Part shown: positions 2,846 to 37,352 of the stretch, one piece after another
How the letters are laid out: each line of letters starts with the position of its first letter
Numbering within the stretch: position 1 is the first letter of the stretch
Program-made: the position numbers and the translations under genes
Origin: Karstenula rhodostoma CBS 690.94
Lineage: Eukaryota; Ascomycota; Dothideomycetes; Pleosporales; Didymosphaeriaceae
Assembly (NCBI GenBank): GCA_010093485.1
Contig: MU001510.1
Coordinates: 947,709 to 1,011,708 of the forward strand
Reading direction: 5' to 3'
Length of the DNA: 64,000 nucleotides
Notes under the pieces: generated by a model
The model's input: the letters and a program-made list of their open reading frames with translations, nothing else
Databases searched by the model: none
Told to the model about the DNA's origin: nothing

Positions 2846-3710
2846 TCACCCCTCCCTCTCCCAAACCTCCGCAAAAGGATCCCACCCCTCATCCCTCCAT
2901 CTCCCATACTCCATAACATTCGCGACCCGCTCCGCCGTCTCCCCCCCATACATCCTCTCAATAAAAGCAAACGTCACATCGATCCCCGCCGAAACCCCCG
3001 ACGAACTCCACACCGGCGTAACCCCCTCGCTCTCATCCACTACCCACCGCGCTTTCCGCACCCACTCCACACGCGGCCCCAGCGCCACGACCGCGTCCCA
3101 CGTGCTCTTGTTCGTCGTAGCCCGCCGATGGTCGAGGAGCCCTATTCCTGCAAGTATCGCCGAGCCCGTGCAGATGGTGATGACGTATTTGACTGTGGGG
3201 AAGACGGTGCGGATGTAGGCTTCGACGGGCGCCATGGTGGCTTTGTTGCGGGTCCCGAAACCTGTCACGTCAGATTGATACATTTACCGTAGTATCCCCA
3301 GATCCATCTGGTATACTAACCACCAGGCACGAGCAGCACCTCCACCTCAGGCGCATCCTGGAACGTGTGCGTTGGGACGATTTCCTGTCCGAAGCCCGTC
3401 GATACGAATGGGTTTGGCGATGGGTTCGTCGAGACTGGTGTTAGGGACTCGGCTAGGATGGCGAGGTCCATCTTGTGCGTGCGGGAGAGCACGTTCAGCG
3501 TGCTCAGGGGGCCGAAGACATCTGGTGTGGTTGAGCGCGGATTCGCACTGGCAGTATGCTGGGGCGGGGTGGAGATCTGACGTACCGAGGGCTTGGAACC
3601 CGGTGAATACGATCATGCCGTATCTAGTGGGTGGCGTGGGACTTCAATGCGTCAGAATCTAATCAGACGTACAGCAATGTGCGACGAAGAGAGGGATGCG
3701 AATACCTCAT
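2846..3710 (-). CDS. DJ-1/PfpI family (class I GATase-like) protein
   Basis: Four exons: 3710-3673, 3623-3586, 3521-3321 and 3261-2846; 230 aa. The core reads GMIVFTGFQALDVFGPLSTL, then EVEVLLVPGGFGTR, then the nucleophile elbow VITICTGSAILAG with the family cysteine, then VWSSSGVSAGID near the end. This is the cytosolic DJ-1/PfpI fold (protein-deglycase, isonitrile-hydratase or chaperone-like members). Splicing restores frame at every junction. The first exon is the weakest part: translation could instead begin at the Met at 3616. A paralogue lies at 29299-29961. Some members of this superfamily hydrate isonitriles, which is notable beside an isocyanide cluster, but I cannot assign that activity from sequence. 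Confidence 0.85.
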
Positions 3711-4308: not shown

Positions 4309-6099
4309 TCAGACTACATAGCCTTTATTCTGCTGCACGCCCTTCACGTTTATATCCTTCCACGCCAGCATGCACGCCAACCCCACTCCCCACACCGACA
4401 CACCCGTAATCAGCAAAAGCCGCCACGTATCCGCATATGCGTGCTGGATAGCCAGACGAGCAGGCGATCCCCACTCATAGCTCAACTGCTCTTCAATGGA
4501 GCCAAATATGGTAGTAAGATTTCCCTGATTTTCGGGCGGAAGGTACAACGCCAGCTTCCGGGGTAACGTGCCTTGCCATATGGCAGAAGAGACGGTGTAG
4601 CCAACGGCACTGCCTATGTAGGTGAACAGGTTCAGCAACGCGATAGTGATGGCGAAGTACTGCTGTGCGGCGGCGGCAGCCAGGATGCTGATTTCGACGG
4701 TGAGCATGAGGATGCCGAAGCCGAAGTTGACGAAGACGTTGCTCATGGCGATGTAGCCCAGGTACCGGGTGGGTTCGCGGAAGTGTATGAGGAGGCCTGT
4801 TCCCAGGACGATGAGCGGCATGCCGAGGAATAGGCTGATGGGTTTGTACTTTCCGGTGAGGGAGATGACGGTGCCTGCGACGATGTTCGCGATGATCTGG
4901 ATGACGGTGCCGGATTGGACGATGTAGCTTGCGTTGGTCACGTCCAGGCCGTTTACTACTTGGAGGTACGAGCTGAAGTAGGAGTTCCAGCATGAGGCGC
5001 TGACGAAGAGTATGAAGGCTACCATGCAGGTGCCGAGGACTGTGCGGTCGTGGAGGATTGCCCACGGGGTGAGCTTGACTCTGGCGAAAGATCTCTCCCA
5101 GACGACGAAGGTGGCGATGAGAAAGACCCCGAAGACGAGGAAACAGATAATCATCGCGGACCCCCAACCCTTCGCTTCCATGGTGTAGAGATTAAACGGC
5201 AGGAGCAAGAAGGCGAATCCAGAGGATAGCAGCAGTAGTCCAAAGAGGTCAAACTCGTGCACGTAATGCATCGTGGTCTGCCAGAACGTGCGTCCGCTCG
5301 TTGCTTTTGTCGGGATAATCCCTTCTCTCTTGGCCTTCTTGTAGTGGTACATGAACAGCCCGAAGAGCGGGAGCGCAACACTGGGGAGTATGATGCTCTC
5401 CATACCAAAGGCCCAGCGCCAGCCAGTCCCGTTTGCGTTCAGGAACGCCGCGGAGATAGGCCCTGCTAGCCATGCCGTGATGATGTATGGGGAGTTGAGC
5501 AGGGCTTGCATGAGACCTCGATGGCGGAGGGACGACGTATCCGCGATAAAGACACTAAGACAGTATCCCAGGCCATTGATGCCGATGGTATAAAACACCT
5601 GGGATGCAGCATATACCTCCACACTAGTACAAGAAGCCGCGATGATAAGGCCGATAGTCGCAAGTCCCACACAGACGAGGAATCCATGCGGTCGACCAAA
5701 GATATCCAGAATTTTCGCGATACAAAGATTCGTGACGCCGCCGATAACCTGGCTTAGGACACTGGTCGTGGGGATCAGTGAGTGGGCCGCGAAATCGGAT
5801 GTGACATAGGGCAGTAAAGCGCCGCTGACTCCAGTGACGATGCCCTGCACAAAGTAGACGAACCAGATTGCGACGTAGGCCACGACCAGAGCTCGGAGTG
5901 ACCACGCAATCGTGATGGCCTCGGCCTTTTGCACGCCCGCTTGGAAATTGGTATCGATAGATTGGTCGTTGGCCGCGTTGCCGTGGACTTTGTCGACGCT
6001 GTGCTTGAGATTCGAAGCTTTGTCTTGCGTCGAAATATGGATAGTGTCGATTTCTTTCGTGTCGATGCCGTTTGATGGAGGAGTATTATTGGAAGCCAT
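4309..6099 (-). CDS. MFS siderophore-type iron transporter (SIT/ARN family)
   Basis: An intronless 596-aa protein. A hydrophilic N-terminus of about 65 residues precedes some 14 predicted membrane segments. The family's conserved regions are seen: first helix with FVQGIVTGVSGALLPYVTS, FGRPHG after helix 2, a cytoplasmic loop with FDLFGLLLLSSGFAFLLLPF, and a long external loop before the last helix (LPPENQGNLTTIFGSIEE). These match the MirB/Sit1/Arn group of H+-coupled siderophore importers at the plasma membrane. Length is normal for the family. It sits tail-to-head with the DHA2 transporter and next to the isocyanide cluster, so its substrate could be a metal-chelate from that pathway; that is inference. 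I found only one isolated GATA core upstream and no extended iron-regulator (SreA-type) site. Confidence 0.9.
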   Translation of the reverse strand: MASNNTPPSNGIDTKEIDTIHISTQDKASNLKHSVDKVHGNAANDQSIDTNFQAGVQKAEAITIAWSLRALVVAYVAIWFVYFVQGIVTGVSGALLPYVTSDFAAHSLIPTTSVLSQVIGGVTNLCIAKILDIFGRPHGFLVCVGLATIGLIIAASCTSVEVYAASQVFYTIGINGLGYCLSVFIADTSSLRHRGLMQALLNSPYIITAWLAGPISAAFLNANGTGWRWAFGMESIILPSVALPLFGLFMYHYKKAKREGIIPTKATSGRTFWQTTMHYVHEFDLFGLLLLSSGFAFLLLPFNLYTMEAKGWGSAMIICFLVFGVFLIATFVVWERSFARVKLTPWAILHDRTVLGTCMVAFILFVSASCWNSYFSSYLQVVNGLDVTNASYIVQSGTVIQIIANIVAGTVISLTGKYKPISLFLGMPLIVLGTGLLIHFREPTRYLGYIAMSNVFVNFGFGILMLTVEISILAAAAAQQYFAITIALLNLFTYIGSAVGYTVSSAIWQGTLPRKLALYLPPENQGNLTTIFGSIEEQLSYEWGSPARLAIQHAYADTWRLLLITGVSVWGVGLACMLAWKDINVKGVQQNKGYVV

Positions 6100-7269
6100 G
6101 AGTGATCGTTGGACCTTCGTCTATAAAGAGTTGAAAATCTTTTCTTCTTCAAAAGATGGGCGTCGTTGCTGCTGCTCCTATCCACCAATGGGGAAAGAAC
6201 TGCGCTTTGTGTGAGCTAGGCAGTGGACGAAGTGAGCGCAAACAAAAATAAGAAAGGAGACTTGACGGAAATTTGATACGGCAAGGGGAGTGTTTCCTAA
6301 AGTAATAAATACCGGATCGCCCATGTGAGCAATCCGAAGAGACAGGCGATTTGTTGGGAAACTCACCGTGGCTTCATGGGCCAAATTGCGGTCTCAAGCG
6401 ACAAAGGCGGCAAGAATCCGCTCATCTGTGGAGGTGAGCATATTCTCTGCCTTGCGTGGCTGATAAGCCGATCCTACCTCCTTGCAAAAAAAACTTGCTC
6501 GAACTTGCTCATATTGTTGTACATACGATTCAAGCCCCACGTTTTGCTGCAGTGAGACGCTTGGGCCCCAGCCATAGGCCAACGAGATGCATGCAAGGGT
6601 GGTCGTATCGGCTCTTACACTTCGTTACCAATTAACATGTACTACAATTAGTATTGTGGACGCCTATAGTTAAGTTCTTTGTATCAGTAATTGCACGGCC
6701 GGCGTGCACGAGTTGATGCGGGCACACCCTATACATATATATCTCCCAAGTCGATACTGCCGAACATTTTCCTGGGGGCCGATGCAGGGCCCGTCGAGCC
6801 CCGGGCCTGAACTACGATATTCAGGGCCCACAAGCCTTTTGCGTTAATTATCCCATGCGTCACGTCGCTGCTGATCGGTTGTAGATGTATCGCACTCCTG
6901 GATGATTCATACGATAGACCTTCTCCCGCCTATCATCGAAGGGTGTTGGCAGGTCTCAAAGCACGTCTAAGGTAGGTTGGTCCCTCATCATCACCCTGTC
7001 TAAGCGATTCGACACACGTAGTCTCTCAGATGGAAATTAAGTAGTATTGGTGGCAGGAAGTCCAGATAGCACGTGCAAGCATGTTCTCTATGAATGCAAA
7101 CTTGATTGATATCATGTCGTTGTGTGAGGCAATGTTATATCCGAAGGTCCTAATGATAACGTCTCTCCAGAACTAAGATCTTGAACTAACCCCCTTTTCC
7201 ATCCCGAAAGCGCCTTGGCTCGATCGTAAAGAATTCAGCATATCGGGATTCTTTTCTCCCAGAAGATGC
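6100..7269. other. Intergenic, no gene recognised
   Basis: About 1.2 kb upstream of the siderophore transporter and downstream of the DHA2 transporter. It contains a GATA core at 6461-6467, and a GC-rich patch at 6769-6835 with several GGGCC/GGCCC cores. No coding signal. Confidence 0.45.
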
Positions 7270-9120
7270 TTATGACTTTTCAACTTCAATACCTTTCTCG
7301 GTTGCTTTGTCCATTGCTGCCTCATCGGCATTAGCAGCCGCTCTGGCATCATCTGCCTGTTCGGTATCTCCTTTCTTTTCGTCCTTTGCCTTGATGTTAT
7401 TCCAATCAACTCCAAGGGTTCCGATGGTTGCAATACACAGCAAGATCAGTGCGACCAAGAACGGCTGCGACAGAGCATCATTGTAAGCGACTCTGATTGA
7501 CCTCAGTGTGTCAGGATCTTGTGTCAAGCTGTTGATTTCTGTGGCACCAGTCTTGACAACGCGAGCTGGATCGATGTTTGCAATGTTCTGCAACTTCTCT
7601 GCAAGCTTGTTGGCCCATAGATTCTGAGCCACGCTGACAAAAACCGCACCACCGAAGTTTTCGGCGAAACAGAGAAGTGCTATGCCGCTGGGTATATCGA
7701 TGTTCTTCCCCGACTGCACAGCCACGATCGCTTGCTGTATACCAAGACCAACACCGAGGCCAAATAGTATCTGATATCCAATCAGTCGACTTGTTGGCGT
7801 ATCGATGTCCCATGTATAGATTAGTCCCGCGCCAACCGCACCTAGTGTAATTGGGGCGAACATGAATGGGTTGTACCAGCCGATCTTGCTAACAAGGAAG
7901 CCCCCGCTCATGATGCTCAGGATGATACTGATCATGAATGGTAACAGGTCAATCCCGGACCGTACTGCGGAAGCACCACGAATCGCTTGAAACCAGATTG
8001 GAATGAAGTACGCCATGACGAAGAAGGAGGCGCTGACGCAAAAAGCGTAAAGAGCAGCGCACATGGTGTGCCTTGACGTCATGACTTTGGTATTCAAGGT
8101 CGCATTGTCTTTCATGAGGGGTTGCACCACTGCAAATCCGAGAAGGAGAACACCAAAAACGACGAACAGAGCGATGATTCTGCCGTCGCCCCATGCGTAT
8201 GTTGTACCACCCCACTGGAGTGCAATCAAAAGACATATGATCGAAGGAGCGAACAAGATCGTACCGATAGGATCAAACCGGAGGACGTACTCTTTCCAGG
8301 TCTTCGTCTCCTTTGGTGGTGAAGGCGGAAACTGGAGGCAAAAGATCAAGATGAGAATTGTTACCCCTCCGAGCGGCAGATTGATGTAGAAGCACCATCT
8401 CCAAGAGGCGTGGTCGGTCAACGCGCCTCCCAGCAGTGGACCCACTATGCTTGCCACACCATAGACAGCAGTGATTAGTCCAATAAACATACCGCGTCGT
8501 GCGAGCGGTACTACTGTCGATATCGTCGTAAGTGCACCGGTGAATATGCCTGAGGCGCCAAATCCGGAGATCGCTCGGCCAGCGATAAGTCCAGCTGAGG
8601 TCGGGGCAACCGCTGAAATCAAAGATCCAATCTCAAACACGACGACGCAGGCGATGAAGAGCCATTTCATGTTCAGAAAGCTGTAGAGTCTTCCGAAGAA
8701 CAGCTGAAACCCTGAGACGAACAAGAGGTACGCAGACCCGTACCATCCCACATCGCCCAAGGAGCCGAAGTGATCTGTGATCCTAGGTATAGCGGTGGCG
8801 ATGATGGTATTGTCGACCGCGATACAGAAATTCGTCAGTTGTAGACTGATGACGATCATTGCCAACTTGAACCCCGTCGCATATTGGTCTTTGTCGTCTT
8901 CGCCGGCTTTCGGTTGCGGAATTGGGCTCCCACTGGTGGAATCCTTGCTTCCACATAACCCTGTACTTTGCTCAGTCCCGGTCTTGTTTGAGTCCTCTTC
9001 GTAGGACATACCTGTATCATGATTTGAAGCCTCCGAAGAGCTACTGTCTCCCTTGCTTTCACAGACGTCAACTGTGGGCGTTTCGTGCATGTTCGAATTG
9101 GCGGATAAAACTGGGCTCAT
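7270..9120 (-). CDS. MFS drug/metabolite exporter, 14-TM DHA2 family
   Basis: An intronless protein of 616 aa from the first ATG at 9120; the open frame extends upstream only through a TTG codon. An acidic, serine-rich N-terminus of about 75 residues is followed by 14 hydrophobic segments. Motifs include NFCIAVDNTIIATAIPRI (DHA2 helix 1, with the charged D), GWYGSAYLL in helix 2, and motif C-like GPLLGGALTDHASWRW. The C-terminus is hydrophilic and rich in Lys, Glu and Ala. DHA2 pumps export toxins and secondary metabolites across the plasma membrane and are frequent in biosynthetic gene clusters. Its 5' end is separated from the 3' end of the NRPS-like gene by repeat-rich DNA. The self-protection or export role is inferred from context. 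Confidence 0.9.
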   Translation of the reverse strand: MSPVLSANSNMHETPTVDVCESKGDSSSSEASNHDTGMSYEEDSNKTGTEQSTGLCGSKDSTSGSPIPQPKAGEDDKDQYATGFKLAMIVISLQLTNFCIAVDNTIIATAIPRITDHFGSLGDVGWYGSAYLLFVSGFQLFFGRLYSFLNMKWLFIACVVVFEIGSLISAVAPTSAGLIAGRAISGFGASGIFTGALTTISTVVPLARRGMFIGLITAVYGVASIVGPLLGGALTDHASWRWCFYINLPLGGVTILILIFCLQFPPSPPKETKTWKEYVLRFDPIGTILFAPSIICLLIALQWGGTTYAWGDGRIIALFVVFGVLLLGFAVVQPLMKDNATLNTKVMTSRHTMCAALYAFCVSASFFVMAYFIPIWFQAIRGASAVRSGIDLLPFMISIILSIMSGGFLVSKIGWYNPFMFAPITLGAVGAGLIYTWDIDTPTSRLIGYQILFGLGVGLGIQQAIVAVQSGKNIDIPSGIALLCFAENFGGAVFVSVAQNLWANKLAEKLQNIANIDPARVVKTGATEINSLTQDPDTLRSIRVAYNDALSQPFLVALILLCIATIGTLGVDWNNIKAKDEKKGDTEQADDARAAANADEAAMDKATEKGIEVEKS

Positions 9121-9372
9121 AAACAGCTTTCCAAAAGTGGTGGGCTGCCTTTCCAAGCCTATCAATCTCTGAGACTCTTAAACTATCAGGAGATCTGCTT
9201 TGGGGTCAATCGAGGGCAAGCGTGAAGGCCTCTACACCGCCTCATCCCTCCAAAAAATCCCGTCATTTCTGCAGGCGCTTCGAGCCATGATCCTTCTTGC
9301 CAACCTCACGTAAGATGATTGGAAGCCATGTAGCTGATGGGTAGAGTTAATTACGTATGAACTAACCTCCAT

Positions 9373-10447: not shown

Positions 10448-13400
10448 TCACCAGCCCTCCCCATGCCTGACATCCAATAGTCTTGCATATCTCGTAAAGT
10501 GTTCATCCTGCTGCAGCATCTTTAGCTCCTCCGGCAGGGTGCCCAGCTCGAGCTCCACACCGCCATCAGCCCTCAGCGGGTGGATGAGCGAAAATCGGAA
10601 GCGCCTATGACCACGCTCAATCTGTGGGCGCACAACTGCTGGCCTGCCCCCGGCAAAAATTCCCTCACCAAATGAGGAGATGTTATCCTCCTGTTCCCAC
10701 AGGATCATGTTAGAAATCATCTCGTTCATGTGCTCCAGACCCATGTTCGCGGTAGCTGGATGGGTGTAGTCCGTCATGGAACGCAAAAGCGTGTACGCAT
10801 CGTGTACCAATGCGGTGTTGACTTTGGCGATTGTTTTGCGAATCAGATATGCAACCTTGGCAAGATTTGTGTTTGGTGAGCACAATTCTTCCACGGGCAT
10901 CATTGTGCGACTCATGATCAGCAAGCTACCAGTATAGGTGGACGGCAGATGACCTGAGAAATAGAGCCTGCCGTCAATTGGAATTTCGAGGATGGACATG
11001 TCGTCTGGACCAAAAGTCTGGCCTCGGTGGTTCTTCGCAACAAGATACCGTGCTCTGATAGCCGTTTGCCACATAAATGCCTGAACAATGTCGCTGATGG
11101 AAGGAATGTGGCTTTTGGCGTCAGAGTGGCCGTTCACATCTTGTTTGAGCTTTTGCAGATTCTCGCGGGAGATCAAAAAGAATGTGCTAGATAAGGAACG
11201 ATCAGAAGGAGCCCTTGGCCACTGAGGTTGCCGTCGGTAGACTGGTCTAAGGTCATCCAGTAAGGCGCCTTTGACGACTGCCTTGTTGTTGCTTTCCCGT
11301 GCTTCAGCGTTGTAGTCGGGTGGGAAGAATGGCAAAAAGTCCCATACGGTATTGTCAACTTCATGAACTGCCTTCGCATGTCCCTCGTGCTGGTAGAGAA
11401 TTTCGGGCAGATTGTGGTTGAAACTTTGAGGATCGTACCAGTCACACGTTGCAGATTGATCTCCCTGCACGTATCTGCAGCAATCTGCCCAGACCTTCAG
11501 AGCCACCAAGGCGCCCTGGCCGTCGAAGCATGTGTGCATGAAGTTCGTGGCCAATATGCATCCACCCTCAATGAAGTTTGCATGAGCCACCATGACGTCG
11601 GCAGGCATACTTGGGAAAGGGTAGCAATCAAGGACGGATTTGTCTTCGTATAGTGAAGGTGCAAACTTGCTGTCTCGAATTGTCGAGAATGAAGGAAGGA
11701 CTTTCGTCATATCTTTGTAGACTAGCTGTCTGGGATTGGATGTAGTCGCCAATGACGGAGGTGGTACTGTAATGGCGTATTCGCCCTTCTTGTAGCCAAA
11801 CTCGAGCTCCGAAGCATGCATCATCTTGCCGTCAAGCTCTGGCATGATCTGGAGAGCACGACACAGACCATTTTGTAGGCGTTCGAAGGTTTGTTGAAAG
11901 TTTGCATCAGGAGGCAACGCAAAGAAGAAGGTGAAACCCATGTAATGATTCGGATTCACTGCGTCAAACGGGTTCATCTTGAATCCCATCCGCCGTTGGT
12001 ATTCGTGTATGGCATTCTGAAGGCCCTCACGTCCGTTCGCTAACCCATCGATGGGTTTCAGGTTAGTCTTCTCGGATCCTTGGTCGTGGTCACTGCCGTT
12101 GGGTTGCCCCTTGGCTTGTCTGTCGGGCTGTTCACCGGGCTGTCCATTTGTTCCTGATTGTGCTTGTTGCTGCAGTAGCTTTCCCAGTTGCGATGAGAAC
12201 TTGGCCAGTGTTGGGTTTGCATACAGATGCCTCGGGGCAATCTGCTCCTGTAACCCTGTAGTTCCTCGAATGACCCTGATTGCTTGGAACACAACGAGAG
12301 AATCCAGCCCCAAGTCGAAGACATCTTCATCTGGATCAGCGCTCTCAATCTCTGGAAACACCGATGCCAAAATTCTCTGGACAGACTGCAAGATGGCTTC
12401 ATCTGAACTTGTGTCGATTGTGTATTCATCGAACTCCTCAATTTGTACCTCATCTCTCGTGGCATAGAAGCGATCAATGAAGTCTTTATATAGGTCCAGA
12501 GTTGCTCGACGCTTGATGGTTGACTTGTCCGTGCGGATGAAGGGTTTTTCTGGCTCTGCAAAGGCAACATAGTCCCTGTGGAACCTGGTCTTTTGGAAAC
12601 CAGATGAGTTAGCGCGCTCAACCTTCTCCCAGATGCTGTCAAACAACTCGTTGTTCCTGGCCGCGGGGTCTTTCAGTTCGATAAGTAGCCCAGCCTGCGG
12701 TTTGCCCTGTCCAATGACGAGGCAGCCCTCGATTGCAGGATGGGTTGTAATCAAGGCTTCCGCGTCCAGAGGCGCAATTTTGTATCCGTTTGACAAAACG
12801 ACGGCATCGTCACTTCTCCCAGTGTATGCATAGAGGTATGTCTTGGTGGGATGTCGCTTGTAGAGATCTTTGAGGTTGACGGAGTGTTGGTCCGGAAACG
12901 TGTAGAAGACGCCTTGAAATAGATCCCATTGAGAGTTTCGATGAACCCAGTGTTCGTAGACTCCTGGCTCGATCTCTTTGAACTCGAACCCTGCGAGTGG
13001 ATGAAACGCAAACCAATGCCAGTCATCTCGTGTCGGCCACAGTACGCCCATGAACAGGCCCTCTGTGGTTCCTGTCAGGTTAAGAACTCGGACGACATCA
13101 TTGACTTTTGTGACAATGCTAGGGCTGACAGGACCTAAAGTCGCGGTTCAAGTCAGCTTCGTTTCATCTTCCAGCCATCCCTGTGCTACTTACCACCAGA
13201 GACGCAAATGAATTTGGCCTTTGTGAATTTTGCCAATACCGATGGAGTCTCGCCCAACTCGTCAGCGAGAGATGGAACAAGATGCCAGATGTCAATATTG
13301 GCATGATCCAGAAGATTCTCGACCAGCGACATGTTGGGCAGAACTCGTGGAGGGCCCAACATGCAATGAAGCTTGAAGAACGCTGGAACAACAATATCCA

Positions 13401-14371
13401 TGAGCATACCAGCACCCTGAAGGTTCCGAAAGATTAGCATCCAATAAGAGATCCAGTACTGCCAAAATAGAGTGACACGATGTAAAAGAAAGGTCTAACT
13501 CACATGGCTCATGGGGAATGAAGAGTAGATCGTGTCTCCTTCATTCCAGTTATCAGTCCACGGTTTGAGCCCGTGATCCCCATCAGTTGGCGGCAGCAAG
13601 CGTACAGCGTCCAATGACCCGATCAACCCATGAGTCCATGAAATCGGTTTCGGAACACCCGTGGTGCCAGATGTATGTGTAATACAGAACGGCTCGTGCA
13701 TGGCTTCTTCAAAGGTCTTTGTGAATGGAAATGCTTCGGTAGTCTCTGCATCCAGAAGCTCTGCCAATGAAGGTAGCTCGAGAATCGTCATAGGTCTTTG
13801 CTTTGTGAAAGCCTCGATAAGAGGAAGCGTTGCTTGACCGTGTGGTCTGATCCATATGTCGCATTTGGCGGCGTTGAGAACCGCCAAAGCACCCTCAACA
13901 TTATTTTTGGGAGATAGAAACAAGGCCTGTGAGCACAGGTGTAAGTTAGAAGTTTTCGGGTCAGCTTGCCGGACAACGTACCCCACAGTTAGCCTTTATG
14001 GCACCGTAGATCAACAGAATGTGTCGCAAATCATCTATGGTTCAAATTAGCAAGAGTAGATGCCTACAGTATCGCCAGTCTAGCTCACGAGGGCCGATAT
14101 AGCCTATCGGCAAGATCTTCCTGTCAGATCCATCATGATGTTCACCATTGCCATTTTCTTGAACTTCATTGCTCTCTTTGAGCCTGTCGTGCAGGAACCA
14201 AGCAGTCTTATCCACTGCTTTTGCAAATGCAGCGGCAGTGATCGTTTGGAAGTGGCTGTTCTGATCTGCAAACGAAGTTAACGAATATATGATGCGATCG
14301 GGCTCGGAACAAGCAAGTTCATCCAAGATCTGAGGTATCAACCTCTTCCCATAGACCTGCGTGCTATCCAT
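10448..14371 (-). CDS. NRPS-like enzyme: adenylation - thiolation - BAHD-type acyltransferase
   Basis: Five exons: 14371-14089, 14034-13982, 13926-13504, 13416-13194 and 13134-10448; all phases agree and give 1222 aa. The adenylation domain (residues about 8-540) has A3 TSGTTGVPK (197-205), A5 GTTEG, A7 YTGRSDD (431-437) and a candidate A10 lysine K535. The carrier domain has DLGLDSL with phosphopantetheine Ser606. After a Gln/Gly-rich linker (about 648-690) comes a BAHD/transferase-type domain with the catalytic HTCFDG (861-866); the usual DFGWG motif is FGEG (1149-1152). There is no thioesterase, reductase or condensation domain in classic form. The likely reaction is to activate a carboxylic acid, tether it, and pass it to an alcohol or amine acceptor. 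The order A-T-transferase matches what I recall of the C-terminal part of CrmA. It is divergent from the isocyanide synthase gene, which suggests shared control. Confidence 0.92.
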
Positions 14372-15131
14372 GGTGATCAGGAGATGGAAGAATAAGTGTG
14401 CAGTTGATATTTTTGCCGTAAAGCGACAGTCCCAGGATTGAAACCGAAAATTGATGGGATAAACACCGATAGTTTGTCAAGTGTCCATGGCTTCCGGTGG
14501 GATCTGACTTTAAAATTTGCTAATTTTATCAAGTCTGCCTTGCGAGACCTAGCTCGGGCACTTAGTTCAGGCACATGGTTAGCTTGGATTGCCTAAATAA
14601 AGATGCAAGAGATATGTGGTATCACAATGACAACACAATCGGAAGGATCACGACATGAGCCCATACGCCAAGGTCCCGCATGGACAGGCCAAGTCTTGAT
14701 CCGACAGTGTAACTGCAAAAGCGAAGTAATATGAGCAAGGTTTCTTATCCTCCATAAGGTTTGAACCTATAATACGGGTCATCAACACCGCGTGCCTACA
14801 CCGCTGATTTACGTGGGCCATCAACACTAGTTTCACCGGATGCCACAGTGACCCACCACTGCCACACAACTCGATATGCAGGTGAATTAGCTTCAGCTGA
14901 TCGATATTTGACGCCTTACGCACTGAAACACGAGTGCTGACGATGTCTGACTGTAGGGTGGATGGAAAGAATGGGAACGTGGTCCTCCAGATAAGATACC
15001 CACTCTCACGCAGTGCAATACGGACAATTTTTGATAGTATGATGGATTTAACCTAGAGCTGCATCCTTTAGACGTTAATTCCAGAATTGCATCTTTGGTT
15101 TCGTTCTTACCATTAAGCGAATGAGAAGGAT

Positions 15132-15139
15132 TGAGCACA
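15132..15139 (-). promoter_or_regulatory. Candidate copper-regulator (Mac1/MacA-type) motif, copy 1
   Basis: TGAGCACA on the plus strand reads TGTGCTCA on the minus strand. From memory, TGTGCTCA is the motif reported for A. fumigatus Mac1/MacA, and it resembles the yeast Mac1 element TTTGCTCA. An eight-base match alone is weak evidence. Confidence 0.35.
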
Positions 15140-15289
15140 TTTGAGATTTGGCGGAGGTGTTGAGGCGTTCATGCTCTAGCCCTTGAGCTCTGCCAATCAA
15201 GATTAAGTTAATCACGAGCTTATTCCTTCGGACATTAACATCGGCGATATGCCTTCTTCCGTTCTCATACATAAGTAAATACGAAGGAT

Positions 15290-15297
15290 TGAGCACA
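15290..15297 (-). promoter_or_regulatory. Candidate copper-regulator (Mac1/MacA-type) motif, copy 2
   Basis: A second exact TGAGCACA, 158 bp from the first, in the second copy of the duplicated segment. It lies 331 bp upstream of the isocyanide synthase start codon. Confidence 0.35.
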
Positions 15298-15627
15298 GTT
15301 AAGGTTCGGTGGAGGCGTTGAGGCGTTCATGCTGCGAACCTTCAAGCTGTGCCGCTCAGCATCCTCTCAATCGCCTCTTTTTTGCTTATGAGGCTGATCA
15401 CGTAATGTTTTAGAGTGGAATTGAGGTTGCCTGTTTTTTGTGACACACTTACCGTATGTGCTTGGCGGAATCTTACGCCCCTCACGTTAGAGAGACGGCT
15501 ACTCGAGTTTGGGAAACAACTACATAAATCGTGACCAATTCTTCGAGCATCCTAGAGAAACTGTTGATCTAATAAGGTCAACGTGATTAGCTTTCAACCT
15601 CTGAGTTTTTGCTGTCACTTCACAGCT

Positions 15628-18279
15628 ATGGCCCCTGCCCTAGATGCATTTCCGGCGACCAATGGCCAAGTGCTGATCGAAAAACCGTCCCCAGCACTCC
15701 CCGAAAAACTTTCGCCTGTCCCTTCCGACAATATGTCACCCAATGATTCGGTTGACATTTCGCCGCACTCAAACACCAGGTCGAAAATGTCTGGCCGCGC
15801 AATAAACGACGTACCAGATCCAAAACCTTCCGAAGCAAACGGCACTACCACCCTCATGTCAACGAGGATTTTGGAAATCATCTTTGACTATGCTCTGAAC
15901 AAATTCGACGACTCCCGAGACCGACTCGAGGCCGGGAGATCCAGGTTCATTGAAGTTCTTAATGAATTCATCAGGGCAGGATCCCAGATCGATATGGCTC
16001 TTCCAGCGTTTCCGTTCAAATCAGCCAACAAAGTCTACAAGGCTCTGGGTTTCCTGCCCGACAAGGCTGAGGAGATAGCCTTGTCACGGTTACACAACAT
16101 GTGCAAACGCATTGAGGAGATCTACGAGCCGGGGGCCAATGTTGTCATTATCTCCGATGGGCTTGTCTACAATGGTTGGTTCCACACCATGTACATGCAT
16201 TCCGTGCTGACGCGCATCGCTAGACTTATTGAGCATATCTGACAGACATACCTGGATTTACGGACAGGCTCTGCGAGCGATGGGGGCCGAAAAGGGCTTC
16301 ACCAACATTAGATTCTCTAGGCTCCGAGACTTTGTTCCTGCCGATTCAACCTTGAAACTGCCAGATAAGATGGACGAGATCTCTTATGTCGCCAACGCCA
16401 CGAATTTTCGTCGATTCATCCTGAACAAATTTGGCATAGATGGCTTGGACGTCGATCAACTCATTGCTACTGATACAGACACCCGTCTGACGTATCAGGG
16501 GTATCGACGGTTCTTGATGTCAGATTTGAGGCACATCTTCACACTTGGAGCCGACCGGAACAGTACTGCATACAAAAGGGAGACGAAGTACCTGGCCAAA
16601 CAGATGCTTGTTCGTGGAGTTGTAAGTTGTTCGATCTCGGATGACACGGAAAGGTGGATTGCTGACACTACAACAGGCTTTCGCAGGAGCAATCAAGCAC
16701 AACTTCCCGAATTATTTGCGGCTCTCTATCCACCAGTCCACCGGGGAGCACAAGGTTTCGATGAGCCTGCTGAACACCAAGACGGGATACACAACTCCTT
16801 GGCATTGCAGTGTCGCTCTGATGGCCGATGGAGAATGGATGAGCGCTCCGATGGGTGACTTTAAGGAGAACACCAGGATGAAGGTCGTCGAGGAGAATGG
16901 TCGTCCAAGCTACTTCCGAGAGATGACCGAGGAAGAATACCTGGAAGACCAGAGACTGGCAGAGGAAGCGGCAAAGCTGATTGAGAAGCCAGTAGTGGAA
17001 GAGCCCCAGGAGCCAGAGAGAAATGAGGACTTCGTCCAATGGGAAGGCTTGACTTACGATCTCAAGAATGGGGCCAAGACGAAACGACTTCTGGATCAAA
17101 TGGACGGATGGCTTAGGGGCGGAACGTTGACGGCATTGATGGTATGTGTTCCTTAGCTCACACATATACATTGCCTGCTCACTAAAATGTTCAGGGGGTT
17201 AGCGGCGCTGGTAAAAGTGTCCTGCTAGACGTATTGGCCAACAGATCAGGCTCAGGTATCGTCCACGGTGATATCCTGGTAAATGGTCAAACTCCAAACT
17301 CCTCCAAGAGTCTATCAGCAACGGTCTATCAGCAAGACTTGCAATTTTCTACTGCGACGGTTAAAGAGGCATTGATCTTCAGTGCCCTCTTGAGGCAACC
17401 CAAGACGACCCCCGTCGTGGAGAAGATTGCCTATGCCGAAGAAGTGCTGAGCCTCGTCGGCATGGAAGCTTTTGCTGATAAAGTTATCGGAGCGTCTGGA
17501 GAGAGTGAGTCGTCCGATCTTCCAAGCCATCCACTGCTTACGATTTGACAGCCCTGAATAGCGAACAAAAGAAGCGGTTGTCGATCGGAGTTGAGCTTGC
17601 TTCCAAACCCACTAACCTGCTCTTGCTCGACCAACCACTGGCAGGACTGGACAGTCAAGCTGCCCTCTCCATATGTCAGCTTCTGCGCCAGATTGGACGA
17701 AAAGGCTTAGCCATCCTTTGTGTCGTCAATCAGCCTTCTGCAAGGCTTCTCCAGACCTTTGATCGCTTACTCCTGCTTGGTGAAGGAGGGAAGCAGCTGT
17801 ATTTCGGCAAGATCGGCCTTTCTTGCAAGACTATGGTCAGCTACTTCGAGAAGAATGGTGCCAGGCTATGCAAAGCAGACGAGAACCCTGCAGAGTGGGC
17901 TCTTGATGTCACTTCCTCAACTGAGAACTCCAACTATGCACAAGACTGGTCGGAGGTCTGGAGCAAGTCTCCAGAGTGCAAGGCGATGAAGAGCAAGCTT
18001 GCTCAGCTGAGGAACAAGTTCTCCGCAACATCGGATCTGGTCGACGATCCTTCAGAGGCCGTTCATCAGTCAGCGCCAGTGTTTGATGCACTGGATTTGC
18101 AGCGTAAGTCAACAACATCTGCTAATGAATTCTTATCTTTAACTCACAGCACTATAGGGGCTTTCTACAAGTATCTCCATTTGGAAAAAATGCAGCTGCC
18201 TGCTGCGCATCCCACAGATGTTTCAGCATCTTGGCTTACAAATGGGGCTACAGTACTTCCACCAGCTTATCTGTCCTGA
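15628..18279 (+). CDS. Isocyanide synthase fused to a degenerate PDR-type ABC nucleotide-binding domain
   Basis: Exons 15628-16174, 16224-16621, 16677-17141, 17195-17504 and 17552-18103, then 18158-18279; 797 aa. Residues about 75-400 are a Dit1/PvcA/XanB-type isocyanide synthase, which turns an amino acid into its isonitrile. It shows IISDGLVYNDLLSISD across intron 1 (D183), RLSIHQS (330-336) and TPWHC (355-359). From about 435 comes the second NBD of a PDR transporter: DGWLRGGTLTALM, Walker A GVSGAGKS (471-478, split exactly by intron 3), a Q-loop YQQD, LNSEQKKRLSIG (575-586), and the NBD end block NPAEWALDV. Walker B reads LLLLDQPLAGLDS, so the catalytic Glu is Gln601. The H-loop reads CVVNQPSA, so the His is Asn633. 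No membrane segment follows. The last intron (18104-18157) is 54 bp without a stop, so retention keeps frame; using acceptor 18149 would end the protein two codons later. The fusion rests on two clean intron joins and a continuous 465-nt exon. Confidence 0.88.
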
Positions 18280-18819
18280 AGAGGTGATGGTGTATAGGGG
18301 CTCCCGGGGCTGAGGAAGACAGTATAGAGGTGCCTGTGGGTGCCCTTGAGCTGCCCGTAAACGGGGGGAGTGCAGACATCTCCCAATCCCAGTGCCTTCC
18401 GTACGCTTTCATTATCGCTAGGGATTGCGGCGTTTTCAATGGATTTCATAGTCCAATGTCATTCGTTGATGAAGTCGATATCCAATGCCAGTGCGGATAA
18501 ACTCGTGTCTCAGCCAAAACGTTCCCATTTGCCCAACCCAGCCTAGCCTGCCACCCCCTCAGATTAGCTGAGATCTCCCGTTCGTGTCGCCCACTGACCG
18601 CTGCGTCGGGAGCTGACAGCTGCCTCAGCTCCCGACGCAGCGGTCAGGCCGGCCCGTCTCACCAAACTCACCTAATACAAACCCGACAGGATATCACATA
18701 GGCTATTTGCCAACCGAGATAATAATCATAAGATTGCGAACGTGTACAAGTTTGTTTTGTTCATACCGTACTTTCTTCTATGCTGACTACTACCACAGAA
18801 AGAATTCTTACGGGTATGG
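18280..18819. other. Convergent intergenic region
   Basis: 540 bp between the 3' ends of the isocyanide synthase fusion and the alpha/beta hydrolase. I looked in all three frames just after 18103 for a PDR transmembrane domain and saw none. The main feature is a long perfect hairpin. Confidence 0.6.
18594..18647. repeat. Perfect 23-bp inverted repeat with 8-nt loop
   Basis: Left arm 18594-18616 and right arm 18625-18647 are exact reverse complements; the loop is CAGCTGCC. The arms are GC-rich (start CTGACCGCTGCG). It sits between two convergent genes, so it could stall or terminate transcription from either side, or be a fold-back relic. No function is proven. Confidence 0.9.
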
Positions 18820-19875
18820 TTACTCATTTCGAGTCGTCATCATCCTCTTCAACCAATTAGCTTTGGCAGCCTTGGCTGACTGAATGACCAAGTGGTCAGC
18901 ATCATTGATCATCTCGAAGATATGGTATGCACCAGGCCAGATGTGCAATTCGCAAGTAGATCCACAGCGCCACATATTCGTCGCAAACTGTACCACCTGA
19001 TCGCGCAATACCTCGCATTCGCCAGCATCAACATAGGTCGGGGGCAGGTTGGAATAGTCCTGGGCGCGGGCCGGTGCGTGGTATGGTGTGACTTTGCCAG
19101 TGCCACGAATATCCGGAAGCACAAGATCCCAACAAGCACGCACCCACTGTGTGCTGGTCGGATTGCCGTACTCAAATTGCTGGTCCGACAGTGTTTCGCA
19201 CCGGTCGTCGAGCTGGGGTGCATACAACATCAGACCTTTGATCGGGATGGAAGGATTCTTCCGGTCGCGAGCCATGAGGCACACCGCTGTAGCCACTATG
19301 CCCCCGCCGGAGACACCGAAGAGCACAATCTGTGATGGATCGATCCCGAGCTTATTGGCATTTTCAGAAAGCCACACAAGTCCGGCATAACAATCTTCGC
19401 TGGGGCCAGGCTGAGGAGTCTCGGGTGACAGGCGATATTCAACAGACACCACGACACAGTCAATGCCTTCGAGAAGGTCAATGATGGGCGTGAGGGCTGT
19501 GAATCTATCTCCACTGACCAATCCACCTCCGTGCATATGGTATAAAACGGGAAGTGGGGTACTCGAGGACTCCTTTGGTGTGAAGATGGAAAGTATGATT
19601 GTAGTGTTGTCGGGTCCAGGAATCGAATGCTCCTCATGAGACAAAAAAGGTTTGTCTCTGAGGATGGTATCTGCACTGAATTCTGTCTCTCCCGTCTCGC
19701 CGTGTGCGCATTGATGCTCGTCTTTGGAGACTCCACGCATCAAGTCAAGATCGAACTCCTCGGGGATTGTAGTAGCATCAAGCAGCTTTGCAAGCTCAGG
19801 GTCATAGGCGGGACGAGGAATGATCCTCGAATCGAGTTTCGCAGCCTGGCTGAATGGGTAAGGATACTGGGTCAT
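18820..19875 (-). CDS. Alpha/beta hydrolase fold-3 (hormone-sensitive-lipase type)
   Basis: An intronless 351-aa protein. It has the oxyanion-hole motif HMHGGGLVSGD, the nucleophile elbow GVSGGG around the catalytic serine, DAGECEVLRDQ that fits the acid region, and AYHIFE for the catalytic histidine. This is the HSL/arylacetamide-deacetylase-like esterase group (Pfam Abhydrolase_3), usually cytosolic; I see no signal peptide. Substrates of the family are esters or lactones. It converges on the isocyanide synthase fusion across 540 bp. If it belongs to the cluster it could hydrolyse an ester intermediate or release the product made by the A-T-BAHD enzyme; that is inference. Length is normal and no catalytic residue is missing. 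Confidence 0.88.
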   Translation of the reverse strand: MTQYPYPFSQAAKLDSRIIPRPAYDPELAKLLDATTIPEEFDLDLMRGVSKDEHQCAHGETGETEFSADTILRDKPFLSHEEHSIPGPDNTTIILSIFTPKESSSTPLPVLYHMHGGGLVSGDRFTALTPIIDLLEGIDCVVVSVEYRLSPETPQPGPSEDCYAGLVWLSENANKLGIDPSQIVLFGVSGGGIVATAVCLMARDRKNPSIPIKGLMLYAPQLDDRCETLSDQQFEYGNPTSTQWVRACWDLVLPDIRGTGKVTPYHAPARAQDYSNLPPTYVDAGECEVLRDQVVQFATNMWRCGSTCELHIWPGAYHIFEMINDADHLVIQSAKAAKANWLKRMMTTRNE

Positions 19876-20994: not shown

Positions 20995-22478
20995 ATGAGC
21001 ATCAGCCAGCTTAAGAAACTCCGAGCGGCAGGTATGTCAACGTGTGTCACCCTTCCTTCTGCCTCTAATACACCTTCCCAGGGAAGCTGGAAGAGATGGC
21101 CGCGGTGGCCCACGAGCTAGATCTCTACACCACCGCAGGCTTCTCTGTGCACTACAAGGCTTCCCAGGCCCTCCCAGCGCCCGACATCGAACCCCTGATA
21201 TACCACGCCCTGGCCCAAGTGCTCCACGAGCTGCCCACACTATTCGCCGTTCCCATCGTCGCCGAGGGGGAAGAAACGTACTTTGCGCGCCTGCCGTCGA
21301 TCGATTTGAGAAAAGTCACCACGTTTGTGCAGCGGGAAAAGCCCGTGCCTGATGACGGGAACGGCAGAGATGCAGAGCTCGACGCACTCCTGCAAACCCA
21401 AGTCAACACCAACTTCAAGTCAAACGAGGGCATCCAGCCGGTGTGGAGATTCATCGTGCTCTACGACTATGCCGCGCAGCAGGCCTTCACTGCAAACTTC
21501 ATGGTCCACCACGCGATCGCGGACGGTGCGTCGTTCCAGCTTCTACACCGCGCATTCCACAAGGCACTACACACGCTCTCTTCTCCCTCTTCCACCCCCC
21601 ACTCCGAGATCTCATATCTCATATCCCCCAACAACGAAGACGCCATCGGCCCGCCCATCGAAGCCATCCACTCCCTACAACTCCCCCCCTCCTCCCCCCC
21701 ACAGCCAAACGCCCCAAACCACAACGACTGGCTCGGAAACCCGCCCTCCTTCCCTCACGCAACGGGCTACACTACCCTCACCCTCTCCCCCGCAATGCTC
21801 CACGCCTGGACCCACGAATGCCGCGCCCACCGCGTCGCGCCCCCCGCAGCACTAAACGCCCTCCTCACGCGCACCATCTACGCCGCCCTCCCCGCAACCA
21901 CAGAATCAATGGACATCAACATCCCCGTCGACGTGCGGAGCAGTCTCCCGCCCGCAGCCGTCGACGGAGCCATGGGCAATTTCTTCGACGCATTCCGCGT
22001 GCGTGTGTTCCGGAGGGACTTCCTCGCCCAGGAAGCCGACGCGGAAGAAGGGGAGCTGGGCGACTTCTGGTGCGTAGCACGCAAAGTGACGGCCGAGACG
22101 AGACAGTATTTCAGCCGCACTGGGGACGATGGGGAAGCCCAGCTCAATATCGCGGGGCTGAAGAACGTGCCTGATCTCCATGCGCTCTTGACATCGTTGG
22201 TTGGCGGGCCGCGCAGCGAGTCGTTGGAACTCGCGTACATCGGCCCGCACGTGCCTTACGCTGACGGGAGCACGCTTCGCTGGCAGGCGGGCAGGGCGAC
22301 GGTGAGCCGGTGTGCGTTTGCGCTGGGGGCGTGTCTGCAGATGACGGTGGTGCTGCATGGGGAGGGTATGACGATTGGGTTTGCGTGGCCGAGAGGTGCG
22401 ATTGGGGATGAGCTCGTGGAGGAGACGATTAAGGGGGTTAGGGAGTATTTTGTTGGAATTACAAAAGGGGCTGCGTAG
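20995..22478 (+). CDS. Alcohol acetyltransferase (AATase)-like acyltransferase
   Basis: Two exons, 20995-21031 and 21082-22478, 477 aa. The short first exon gives MSISQLKKLRAAG, which joins in frame to KLEEMAAVAHELDLYTTAGF; the LRxxGKLE start is typical of the fungal AATase family and decides the start. The catalytic motif HHAIADG is present, with the downstream NIPVDVRSSLPP and DFWCVARK regions usual for this family. Members transfer an acyl group from CoA to an alcohol. It is soluble, with no signal peptide. GC content and codon use are much more C-rich than in the neighbouring cluster genes, so it may have a different history. It closes the accessory block before conserved housekeeping genes. 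Membership in the isocyanide pathway is possible but unproven. Confidence 0.85.
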
Positions 22479-35862: not shown

Positions 35863-37352
35863 ATGGGATTCCTATTGCGAAAGTTGCTTTCTTTCTACTT
35901 ACTGGGGGTTGTGTGGGTTACGGTAGCCCAGTTTACAATTCCTGAATGTGCAGTAAGTCCATTACAATCAACAATGCGATCGCGCTGCTAATTTTGTTAG
36001 CAACCATGCCTTCTCATGGCGTTTGCCACGAACACTTGCAGTCCAACTGACCTTGACTGCATGTGCACGAATGAGATCTTCCAGAACAATGTTACACTCT
36101 GTGTTGGCGCAAGTTGCACAGTTCCGGATCAGCTAGGTACGCTGAACGGCGCAATTGCGGTGGAAAATTATATATTGACCAACTTCAGCGGCCAAGAACA
36201 GCAGCTTGACCACCTGTGGAGCTCCCGTTTATGATCGCGGCCCTAAATACATCGTCCTGTCGAATACCATGTGTTCGATATCCGTCGGCTTCGTCGTCGT
36301 GCGATTTGCGTTCAAGATCCTTGTCGCCAGGGTCGATATTGGCTGGGATGACTGGGCTGTGCTCGCCACCATGATAATGTCTATACCCAGCGCAGTCGTC
36401 ACTGTCTATGGAACCGTCGAGCATGGCTTGGGCCAACACATCTGGACCCTACGACCAGATCAAATCACGACCATGCTGGAGTACTTTTACATTATGACCG
36501 CACTGTACTTCACGCAGAGTGCGTTATTGAAGCTCTGTTTGGTGTTGTTCTACATTCGCGTCTTTCCTAGCCAAGGCGTCCAGCGCTTGCTATGGGCCAC
36601 TGTCGTCTTCGTCGTCGCGTCTGCTATCATCTTTGTTCTTGTTGCTATCTTCCAATGCACACCCGTGCATCACTTCTGGGAGCAGTGGGATGGACTCCAC
36701 GAAGGCCACTGCGTCAACATCAACGCGGTTACGATCACCCATGCTGCTATCAGTATCGCCTTGGACGTCTGGATCCTCGGAGTACCCATGTGGCAATTGC
36801 GAAAACTGAAGATGCATTGGCAGAAGAAGGCGGGCGTCGGTCTGATGTTTTGTGTCGGTACCTTCGTCACAATAGTCAGCATCCTGCGGTTCCGGGCCAT
36901 ATTGGAGTTTGCGGGTTCCTATGACGCAAGTTGGGAGTTCTACAATGTGTCGGTGTGGAGCACGATTGAGATAAGCACAGGCATCATGTGGTAAGTCAGC
37001 AACTATGTCTCGTAGAGAGAGATCTGACGTACTCAGTTCCTGCCTCCCGGCGGTACGCCAGCTGCTCGCTAAGCTGTTCCCCATCATTCAAGGTTCCTCT
37101 GCACACAGTCGGCAGAACTACTACATCTACGACGAGAGCAAGGAACTGCAGAAGATTGGCCGGAGCAATACCTCTCATGACGTCCGAATCGCAACCATAG
37201 CCTCTTCGGGTGACAATGGATCAGCAGAATTCAAGGATGACCGAGGAATCGTGGTAGAAACATCGTACACGATCAAACGGCACAATGATGTGGACGAAGT
37301 TAGTCTGGTGTCACACGAGGATCGCTATGTCAAGGGAGGTCGTGTCGGGTGA
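35863..37352 (+). CDS. CFEM-domain Pth11-like G-protein-coupled receptor
   Basis: Four exons: 35863-35952, 36001-36136, 36189-36990 and 37037-37352; 447 aa. A signal peptide (about 1-22, ending VTVAQ) is followed by a CFEM domain with eight cysteines: PECAQPC, NTCSPTDLDCMC, TLCVGASC and LTTCGAP, the last cysteine supplied by exon 3. Then come seven hydrophobic helices of the fungal Rhodopsin/integral-membrane type (about 95-350), with GWDDWAVL, HGLGQHIW, CTPVHHFWEQW and the last-helix end MCSCLPAVRQL across intron 3. The C-terminal tail of about 95 residues is hydrophilic. Pth11-like receptors sense surface or host cues at the plasma membrane, as shown for rice blast. The ligand here is unknown. 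Confidence 0.92.

Follow-up and report, generated by a model that had tools for sequence, protein, structure and literature searches.

The relevant passages of two surveys of isocyanide synthases (ICSs) describe three ICS architectures, none of them an ICS joined to an ABC protein (PMC5974471, PMC10153163). CrmA of Aspergillus fumigatus, a hybrid of an ICS and a part resembling a nonribosomal peptide synthetase (NRPS), is linked in sections of PMC9381783 to a valine-derived isocyanide. Gene cluster family 8 (GCF 8), as set out in part of PMC10153163, has a monodomain ICS adjoining a crm-like NRPS gene. In the copper- and Mac1-responsive crm locus of Fusarium oxysporum, the pertinent section of PMC11563359 gives the genes as crmC, FOXG_09770 (transferase), crmA, FOXG_09772 (hydrolase) and crmB, the last two being divergent. 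Here we describe a gene of Karstenula rhodostoma CBS 690.94 in which an ICS runs in frame into a nucleotide-binding domain (NBD) of PDR type. The gene lies in a 64,000-nucleotide stretch of contig MU001510.1 (forward-strand positions 947,709 to 1,011,708), hereafter the window, whose numbering is used throughout. From sequence comparison, we put at about 0.7 the probability that it descends, by reduction, from an ICS fused to an entire PDR (ABCG) transporter, with the second NBD (NBD2) kept as a non-hydrolysing appendage.

The rebuilt splice model comprises six exons on the plus strand (15628–18279) separated by GT..AG introns, and encodes 797 aa. Exon 1 (15628–16174) opens with the start codon at 15628, and homologue P0001 opens alike. 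Exon 2 (16224–16621) carries the ICS core and joins ISDGLVYN to DLLSISDRHTW, as homologues do. Exon 3 (16677–17141), an uninterrupted 465 nt, holds the end of the ICS, the linker and the start of the NBD. Exon 4 (17195–17504) covers the Walker A and Q-loop region; exon 5 (17552–18103) covers the signature, Walker B, H-loop and the start of the C-terminal tail; and exon 6 (18159–18279) contains the remaining tail, which by eye appears to be a remnant of the first helix of a second membrane domain, and the stop codon. Everything from Walker A onward depends on removal of intron 3 (17142–17194), since its retention would bring a stop after four codons. Pfam placed the ICS domain (DIT1_PvcA, PF05141) at aa 112–382 (15961–16877, introns included) with 315.8 bits over positions 2–269 of the 273-position profile, and ABC_tran (PF00005) at aa 455–603 with 57.1 bits. 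No further Pfam domain was found in the protein at E ≤ 0.001, and thus no TauD dioxygenase of the kind that marks XanB. Hydropathy analysis revealed no membrane span, the highest 19-residue value being 1.38 with no window at or above 1.6. These results confirm the first-pass annotation in its coordinates and frame, in the single exon spanning the join and in the absence of a membrane domain.

The first-pass annotation had also recommended a Pfam scan for both domains, answered above, and a search for the same pair elsewhere. Among the matches listed in a protein search, ten full-length homologues of 753–800 aa, 64–83% identical to the window protein, carry PF05141 and PF00005 and align across 91–100% of the model. 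These proteins, which we call ICS-NBD, come from Paraphaeosphaeria (two species), Lindgomyces, Lophiostoma, Exserohilum, Tothia, Venturia (two), Exophiala and Fonsecaea; of the five hosts checked for lineage, three belong to the Dothideomycetes and two to the Chaetothyriales (Eurotiomycetes). Since ten homologues carry both domains, chance or a local assembly error is excluded. A run-together of two genes by the gene model or the assembly was likewise rejected, for the join lies within a single exon and recurs in ten other records, which leaves that explanation with hardly any probability. In the 44.3-Mb genome (29 contigs) PF05141 gave three matches, and because all of them are exons of the ICS-NBD gene, no other ICS was found. 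Judged by its residues, the ICS domain is intact-looking, with PF05141 over its full length. Seventy-two columns hold one letter in at least 97% of 165 other ICS domains, and 69 of these are kept in all 11 ICS-NBD members (the window protein and the ten homologues). The exceptions are column 124 (C to A or S in most), column 139 (V to A in 10 of 11) and column 141 (G to D in one); the window ICS itself deviates at 124 and 139.

The ancestry of this arrangement is suggested by a second group, in which an ICS precedes a PDR transporter (ICS-PDR). When the ICS region of a Fusarium protein of 1371 aa served as query, with a length range of 754–2399 aa, 120 of 135 matches were listed; by hand count they comprise 90 CrmA-type, 16 ICS-PDR, nine ICS-NBD and five partial or fragmentary proteins, the ICS-NBD homologue P0005 falling below the range. 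Among the matches listed, 13 of the 16 ICS-PDR proteins measure 1,771–1,880 aa, two are shorter (1371 and 1429) and one is longer (2088). Their hosts are Fusarium, Purpureocillium, Aulographum, Clohesyomyces, Stagonosporopsis, Zasmidium, Zymoseptoria, Pseudocercospora, Phialophora, Cladophialophora, Hyaloscypha, Glarea and a Caloplaca lichen. Five were run through Pfam: P0124, P0133, P0135 and P0171 show the ICS, ABC_trans_N, two ABC_tran stretches, two ABC2_membrane stretches and PDR_CDR, and P0196 lacks one ABC_tran stretch. Proteins such as P0124 (Aulographum), P0127 (Cladophialophora) and P0133 (Caloplaca) share with the window protein the same kind of N-terminal ICS and a related NBD2, but ICS-PDR proteins retain the membrane domains, the catalytic Glu and, by domain search in all of the 16 except P0196, NBD1; P0124 has 37 hydropathy windows at or above 1.6 where the window protein has none. 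A 623-aa metagenomic protein, P0014, runs from ICS through ABC_trans_N to NBD1. As its record has no contig longer than 1,947 bp, introns could take up 78 bases at most, which speaks against merged gene models as the general origin of ICS-PDR. The first-pass annotation knew of no ICS fused to an ABC ATPase. This agrees with the survey passages, and our search of the literature, PMC6071951 included, with subscription journals mostly outside it and supplements not covered, found no account of an ICS-ABC fusion; the ten homologues and the ICS-PDR proteins show that such fusions are nonetheless present in databases. Since the same kind of ICS also occurs joined to a PDR transporter, reduction is a likelier origin for the gene than a new union of synthase and ATPase.

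Against solved structures the NBD scored 318 bits with Pdr5 NBD2 (residues 870–1165) and 33 bits with Pdr5 NBD1, which identifies it as NBD2 of a PDR pump, occupying aa 436–740 (17037–18051, introns included). The predicted structure of P0001 has an NBD2 fold, 46% identical to Cdr1 over 312 residues. Both structure models are of P0001 and not of the window protein; the first, with an NBD poor from a shallow alignment, was not used, and the good NBD score of the other leans on ICS-PDR and ordinary PDR sequences, since many of its 60 rows are such proteins. While it resembles NBD2 of Pdr5 and Cdr1 in fold, the window protein differs from these full transporters in having one NBD, no hydrophobic spans and neither the catalytic Glu nor the switch His. 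In alignment, Q601 (codon 17632–17634, plus strand) replaces the Walker B catalytic Glu (Pdr5 E1036) and N633 (17728–17730, plus strand) the H-loop switch His (Pdr5 H1068), the Pdr5 numbers being counted by eye. The first-pass annotation was therefore correct about the PDR class of the domain but missed that it is NBD2 and that both residues are lost. The Glu site holds Gln in 10 of 11 ICS-NBD members and is missing in P0010, whereas Glu is present in 16/16 ICS-PDR proteins. The switch His is Asn in seven ICS-NBD members (the window protein included), Ser in one, Thr in two and retained in P0005 only, compared with 15/15 ICS-PDR NBD2s examined. In Pdr5, the relevant section of PMC6533308 reports no significant ATPase activity for E1036Q. 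It is thus unlikely that the window NBD performs ATP-driven work.

Glu-to-Gln variants of ABC proteins are the classic ATP-trapped forms, and ABCG structures with this substitution are on record. A nucleotide that is bound and not hydrolysed might therefore clamp two subunits together and turn the ICS on or off, and the Walker A Lys (9 of 11 members) and the signature stretch (10 of 11) are widely retained. However, a homodimer of NBD2s would set Walker A against a non-canonical LNSEQ signature, and the Q-loop Gln, read by eye, is lost in two members; we regard such an ATP switch as unlikely. The same opposition of Walker A to LNSEQ, together with the missing catalytic base, would weaken the suggestion of the first-pass annotation that the NBD senses ATP or dimerises the synthase.

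To place both domains, we used an ICS tree of 79 rows and an NBD tree of 66 rows, including 40 of 42 free PDRs and one PDR of the same genome, chosen from 224 proteins; P0010 (broken NBD) and P0011 (partial NBD2) were left out of the NBD tree and of the rate and column counts given below, and P0011 also of the junction counts. In the ICS tree, ICS-NBD forms one clade (100/100) nested in a 29-row clade (100/98) that also holds 10 ICS-PDR, six ICS-only and two partial rows, the other six ICS-PDR rows lying outside. Of the 19 CrmA-type rows, 18 group in a separate clade that includes one ICS-only row, and P0128 falls outside it. In the NBD tree, ICS-NBD groups (98/94) with nine ICS-PDR NBD2s, and a 99/86 branch parts the fused NBD2s from 40 free PDRs; one free protein on a very long branch, P0102, strays among the fused. 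A single clade of all 25 ICS-fused NBD2s was not rejected by the approximately unbiased (AU) test (p 0.175). Because the trees put its ICS, and less firmly its NBD, with ICS-PDR, the window gene appears to be a cut-down ICS-transporter fusion. By eye, the ICS-PDR proteins continue past ...GRPSYFRE towards ABC_trans_N, while the window protein enters the stretch that precedes NBD2; its tail at first looks like the opening helix of the second membrane domain, then diverges. These junctions fit a deletion. The simplest reading of the trees is one early ICS-PDR fusion followed by several reductions.

We propose that the ancestor was an ICS fused to a whole PDR drug-efflux transporter. One deletion would have removed NBD1 along with the ABC N-terminal domain and the first of the two membrane domains, and a second, presumably in that order, nearly the whole second membrane domain, leaving a soluble ICS with an NBD2 tail.

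Several observations weigh against this proposal. The AU test did not reject a position of ICS-NBD outside ICS-PDR (p 0.164), the NBD stem of ICS-NBD is long (0.84), and the root of the ICS tree depends on one distant row; since the stem is long and the test permissive, NBD2 alone does not prove nesting in ICS-PDR. Most ICS-PDR proteins are known as database gene models. Both Venturia members have lost the Walker A Lys, one of them also the Walker B Asp and the other the signature and Walker B, and P0003 has lost the Walker A Ser/Thr too; the Venturia losses fit decay as well as they fit a role for the NBD. The value of 0.164 also gives some room to an origin apart from ICS-PDR, in which a stand-alone ICS would have acquired an NBD2 fragment by a fusion of its own, but the ICS and NBD trees both seat ICS-NBD beside the same ICS-PDR proteins, and we consider such a second origin quite improbable.

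Decay deserves separate consideration. The NBD evolves at 2.1 times the rate of the ICS in ICS-NBD, compared with 1.0 in ICS-PDR. One residue is present in at least 14 of 15 ICS-PDR NBD2s at 163 columns; in ten ICS-NBD members 107 of these are kept, 31 partly kept, 13 changed to one new residue and 12 variably changed. The changes cluster at Walker B, immediately before the Q-loop and at about 551–563, the last two groups probably facing the membrane domain. The faster rate, the 25 changed columns and the Venturia proteins would all be expected if the NBD were functionless and slowly decaying, with selection on the ICS alone and loss of the tail bringing no gain. Yet mean identity across ten members is 75% in the NBD, against 35% in the N-terminal segment and 41% in the extreme C-tail, the 107 columns are kept, and the NBD is present in homologues from two fungal classes. 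We therefore hold simple decay to be possible but doubtful. In P0009 and P0010, both from Venturia, the NBD motifs are disappearing and the conserved ICS columns are retained. Because the modelled domain still folds and most members keep the Walker A Lys, we favor an appendage with a role. It cannot transport and, with Glu changed to Gln and His to Asn, would not be expected to hydrolyse ATP; it may be structural or may bind nucleotide, contributing to stability, assembly or placement under relaxed constraint.

The genome's own pumps were also compared. The NBD is not a recent copy of one of them, the best full-length free match being 49% identical and exon-length matches reaching 55%. No orphan half-transporter was seen among the stronger ABC matches of the genome, which the check covered, and by eye all seven pairable full-type PDR loci own an NBD2. 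A free PDR on another contig (C3:537675-541615) has an N-half 62% identical to that of an ICS-PDR protein over 471 residues and 51% over a shorter first piece, and may represent the type of pump that was taken up in the fusion. With such a pump present, and an ancestor that would have been covalently joined to its transporter, NBD2 might be thought to complement a PDR transporter encoded elsewhere or to anchor the synthase to it. Against this stand the seven self-sufficient loci and the change, in ICS-NBD, of ICS-PDR-conserved residues just before the Q-loop, where they probably face the membrane domain; the idea is very improbable. The tether to a transporter raised in the first-pass annotation comes closest to the proposed ancestor, but the transporter is gone and the genome matches offered no orphan half-pump for it to join.

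Upstream of the ICS-NBD gene, and divergent from it, lies a gene of several exons (10448–14371, minus strand; ATG and stop checked) for a CrmA-like adenylation-carrier-transferase (A-T-transferase), in which no ICS domain was seen. Its exons are 52% identical over 898 columns and 65% over 142 to the corresponding part of A. fumigatus CrmA (P0188), and they match FOXG_09770 at 60%. Although the ICS domain is related to that of CrmA, the two halves that CrmA unites in one polypeptide are here split into divergent genes, and the ICS bears an NBD instead. Downstream follow an alpha/beta hydrolase gene (18820–19875, minus strand; clear assignment) and, divergent from it and at the place of crmB, an acyltransferase-like gene (21096–22478, plus strand; weak Pfam matches, below the cut-offs). 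As in F. oxysporum crm and GCF 8, the ICS thus adjoins a separate CrmA-type A-T-transferase, the mark of a crm cluster, and the order of transferase, ICS, hydrolase and acyltransferase-like gene is that of F. oxysporum crm; the Fusarium 'monodomain' ICS, in contrast, has no NBD. From its gene content the locus resembles a split crm cluster. The ICS would most likely convert an amino acid, probably valine if CrmA is a guide, into an isocyanide. The divergent A-T-transferase would then activate and transfer this product, so that the task of a single protein is divided over two. An A-T-transferase homologue lies on a contig of equal length in at least 2 of 10 ICS-NBD cases (Tothia, Fonsecaea) and at least 7 of 16 ICS-PDR cases, three of the latter with nearby locus tags.

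The 1,256-bp divergent promoter contains two copies of a 77-nt unit (15099–15175 and 15257–15333, plus strand; 79% identical by sequence comparison), spaced 158 nt apart, and these are the only two copies found in the genome. Each carries one Mac1/MacA-type copper element, TGTGCTCA (motif as given in part of PMC6981102), on the minus strand. The element at 15132–15139 fits the F. oxysporum consensus, and that at 15290–15297 leaves its first position unmatched. Two TGTGCTCA in this promoter compare with 0.06 expected (Poisson P of at least two, 0.0016), both within the duplicated unit. The pathway may act under copper limitation. A further point on the other side is that TGTGCTCA is not enriched over the window, with six found, 2.97 expected and 11 of 100 shuffles reaching six.

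Further features of the window include two MFS transporter open frames (4312–6120 and 7273–9177, minus strand) and a DJ-1/PfpI exon, possibly isonitrile-hydratase-like (2879–3265, minus strand). Residues 1916–2034 of the ICS-PDR protein P0135 (Glarea lozoyensis) form a DJ-1/PfpI domain 41% identical to this exon; if its gene model is right, P0135 would unite in a single polypeptide the synthase, the exporter and what may be an isonitrile hydratase. A perfect 23-nt inverted repeat with an 8-nt loop lies just downstream of the ICS-NBD gene (18594–18647), of which no second copy was found in the genome apart from its own arms. A protein with a fungal rhodopsin domain (PF20684) is encoded at 36179–36991.

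Exporters have been joined to ICS enzymes by a second route as well. Four CrmA-type proteins (P0130, P0148, P0161 and P0223) bear an MFS transporter domain; in Bipolaris, Verticillium and Lojkania it is C-terminal. An added transporter domain on CrmA is mentioned in part of PMC9381783, and database records show it to be MFS. The likeness to the proposed ancestor is that of an ICS enzyme fused to a transporter, but the transporter is MFS rather than ABC and is carried on CrmA itself. Among four Fusarium ICS-only proteins tested, an ABC_trans_N-like stretch follows the ICS in P0035 (E 2e-5, just under the Pfam cut-off) and more weakly in P0033 (0.017), and was not found in P0026 or P0030. The stretch in P0033 and P0035 is perhaps a transporter remnant, which would bear on the 'monodomain' class of GCF 8.

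These findings add two ICS architectures to the three described, a fourth that pairs an ICS with a PDR transporter and a fifth that pairs it with a dead NBD2, and they suggest that some 'monodomain' ICSs lost a transporter rather than never having one. The ICS-PDR and ICS-NBD proteins also bear on how CrmA arose, an event explained in the relevant passage of PMC10153163 by a monodomain ICS joining a neighbour. The reduced form represents a natural Glu-to-Gln NBD retained without its transporter. A bolder scenario, which we consider rather unlikely, is that fungi evolved single-polypeptide synthase-exporters and that in the lineage of the window gene the remaining NBD2 became a sensor that binds nucleotide without hydrolysing it and gates the synthase. 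If it held, the synthase-exporter would be an ICS welded to the very pump that would remove its reactive, metal-binding product. Enzyme-exporter fusions would allow metabolite channelling and self-protection to be tested directly.
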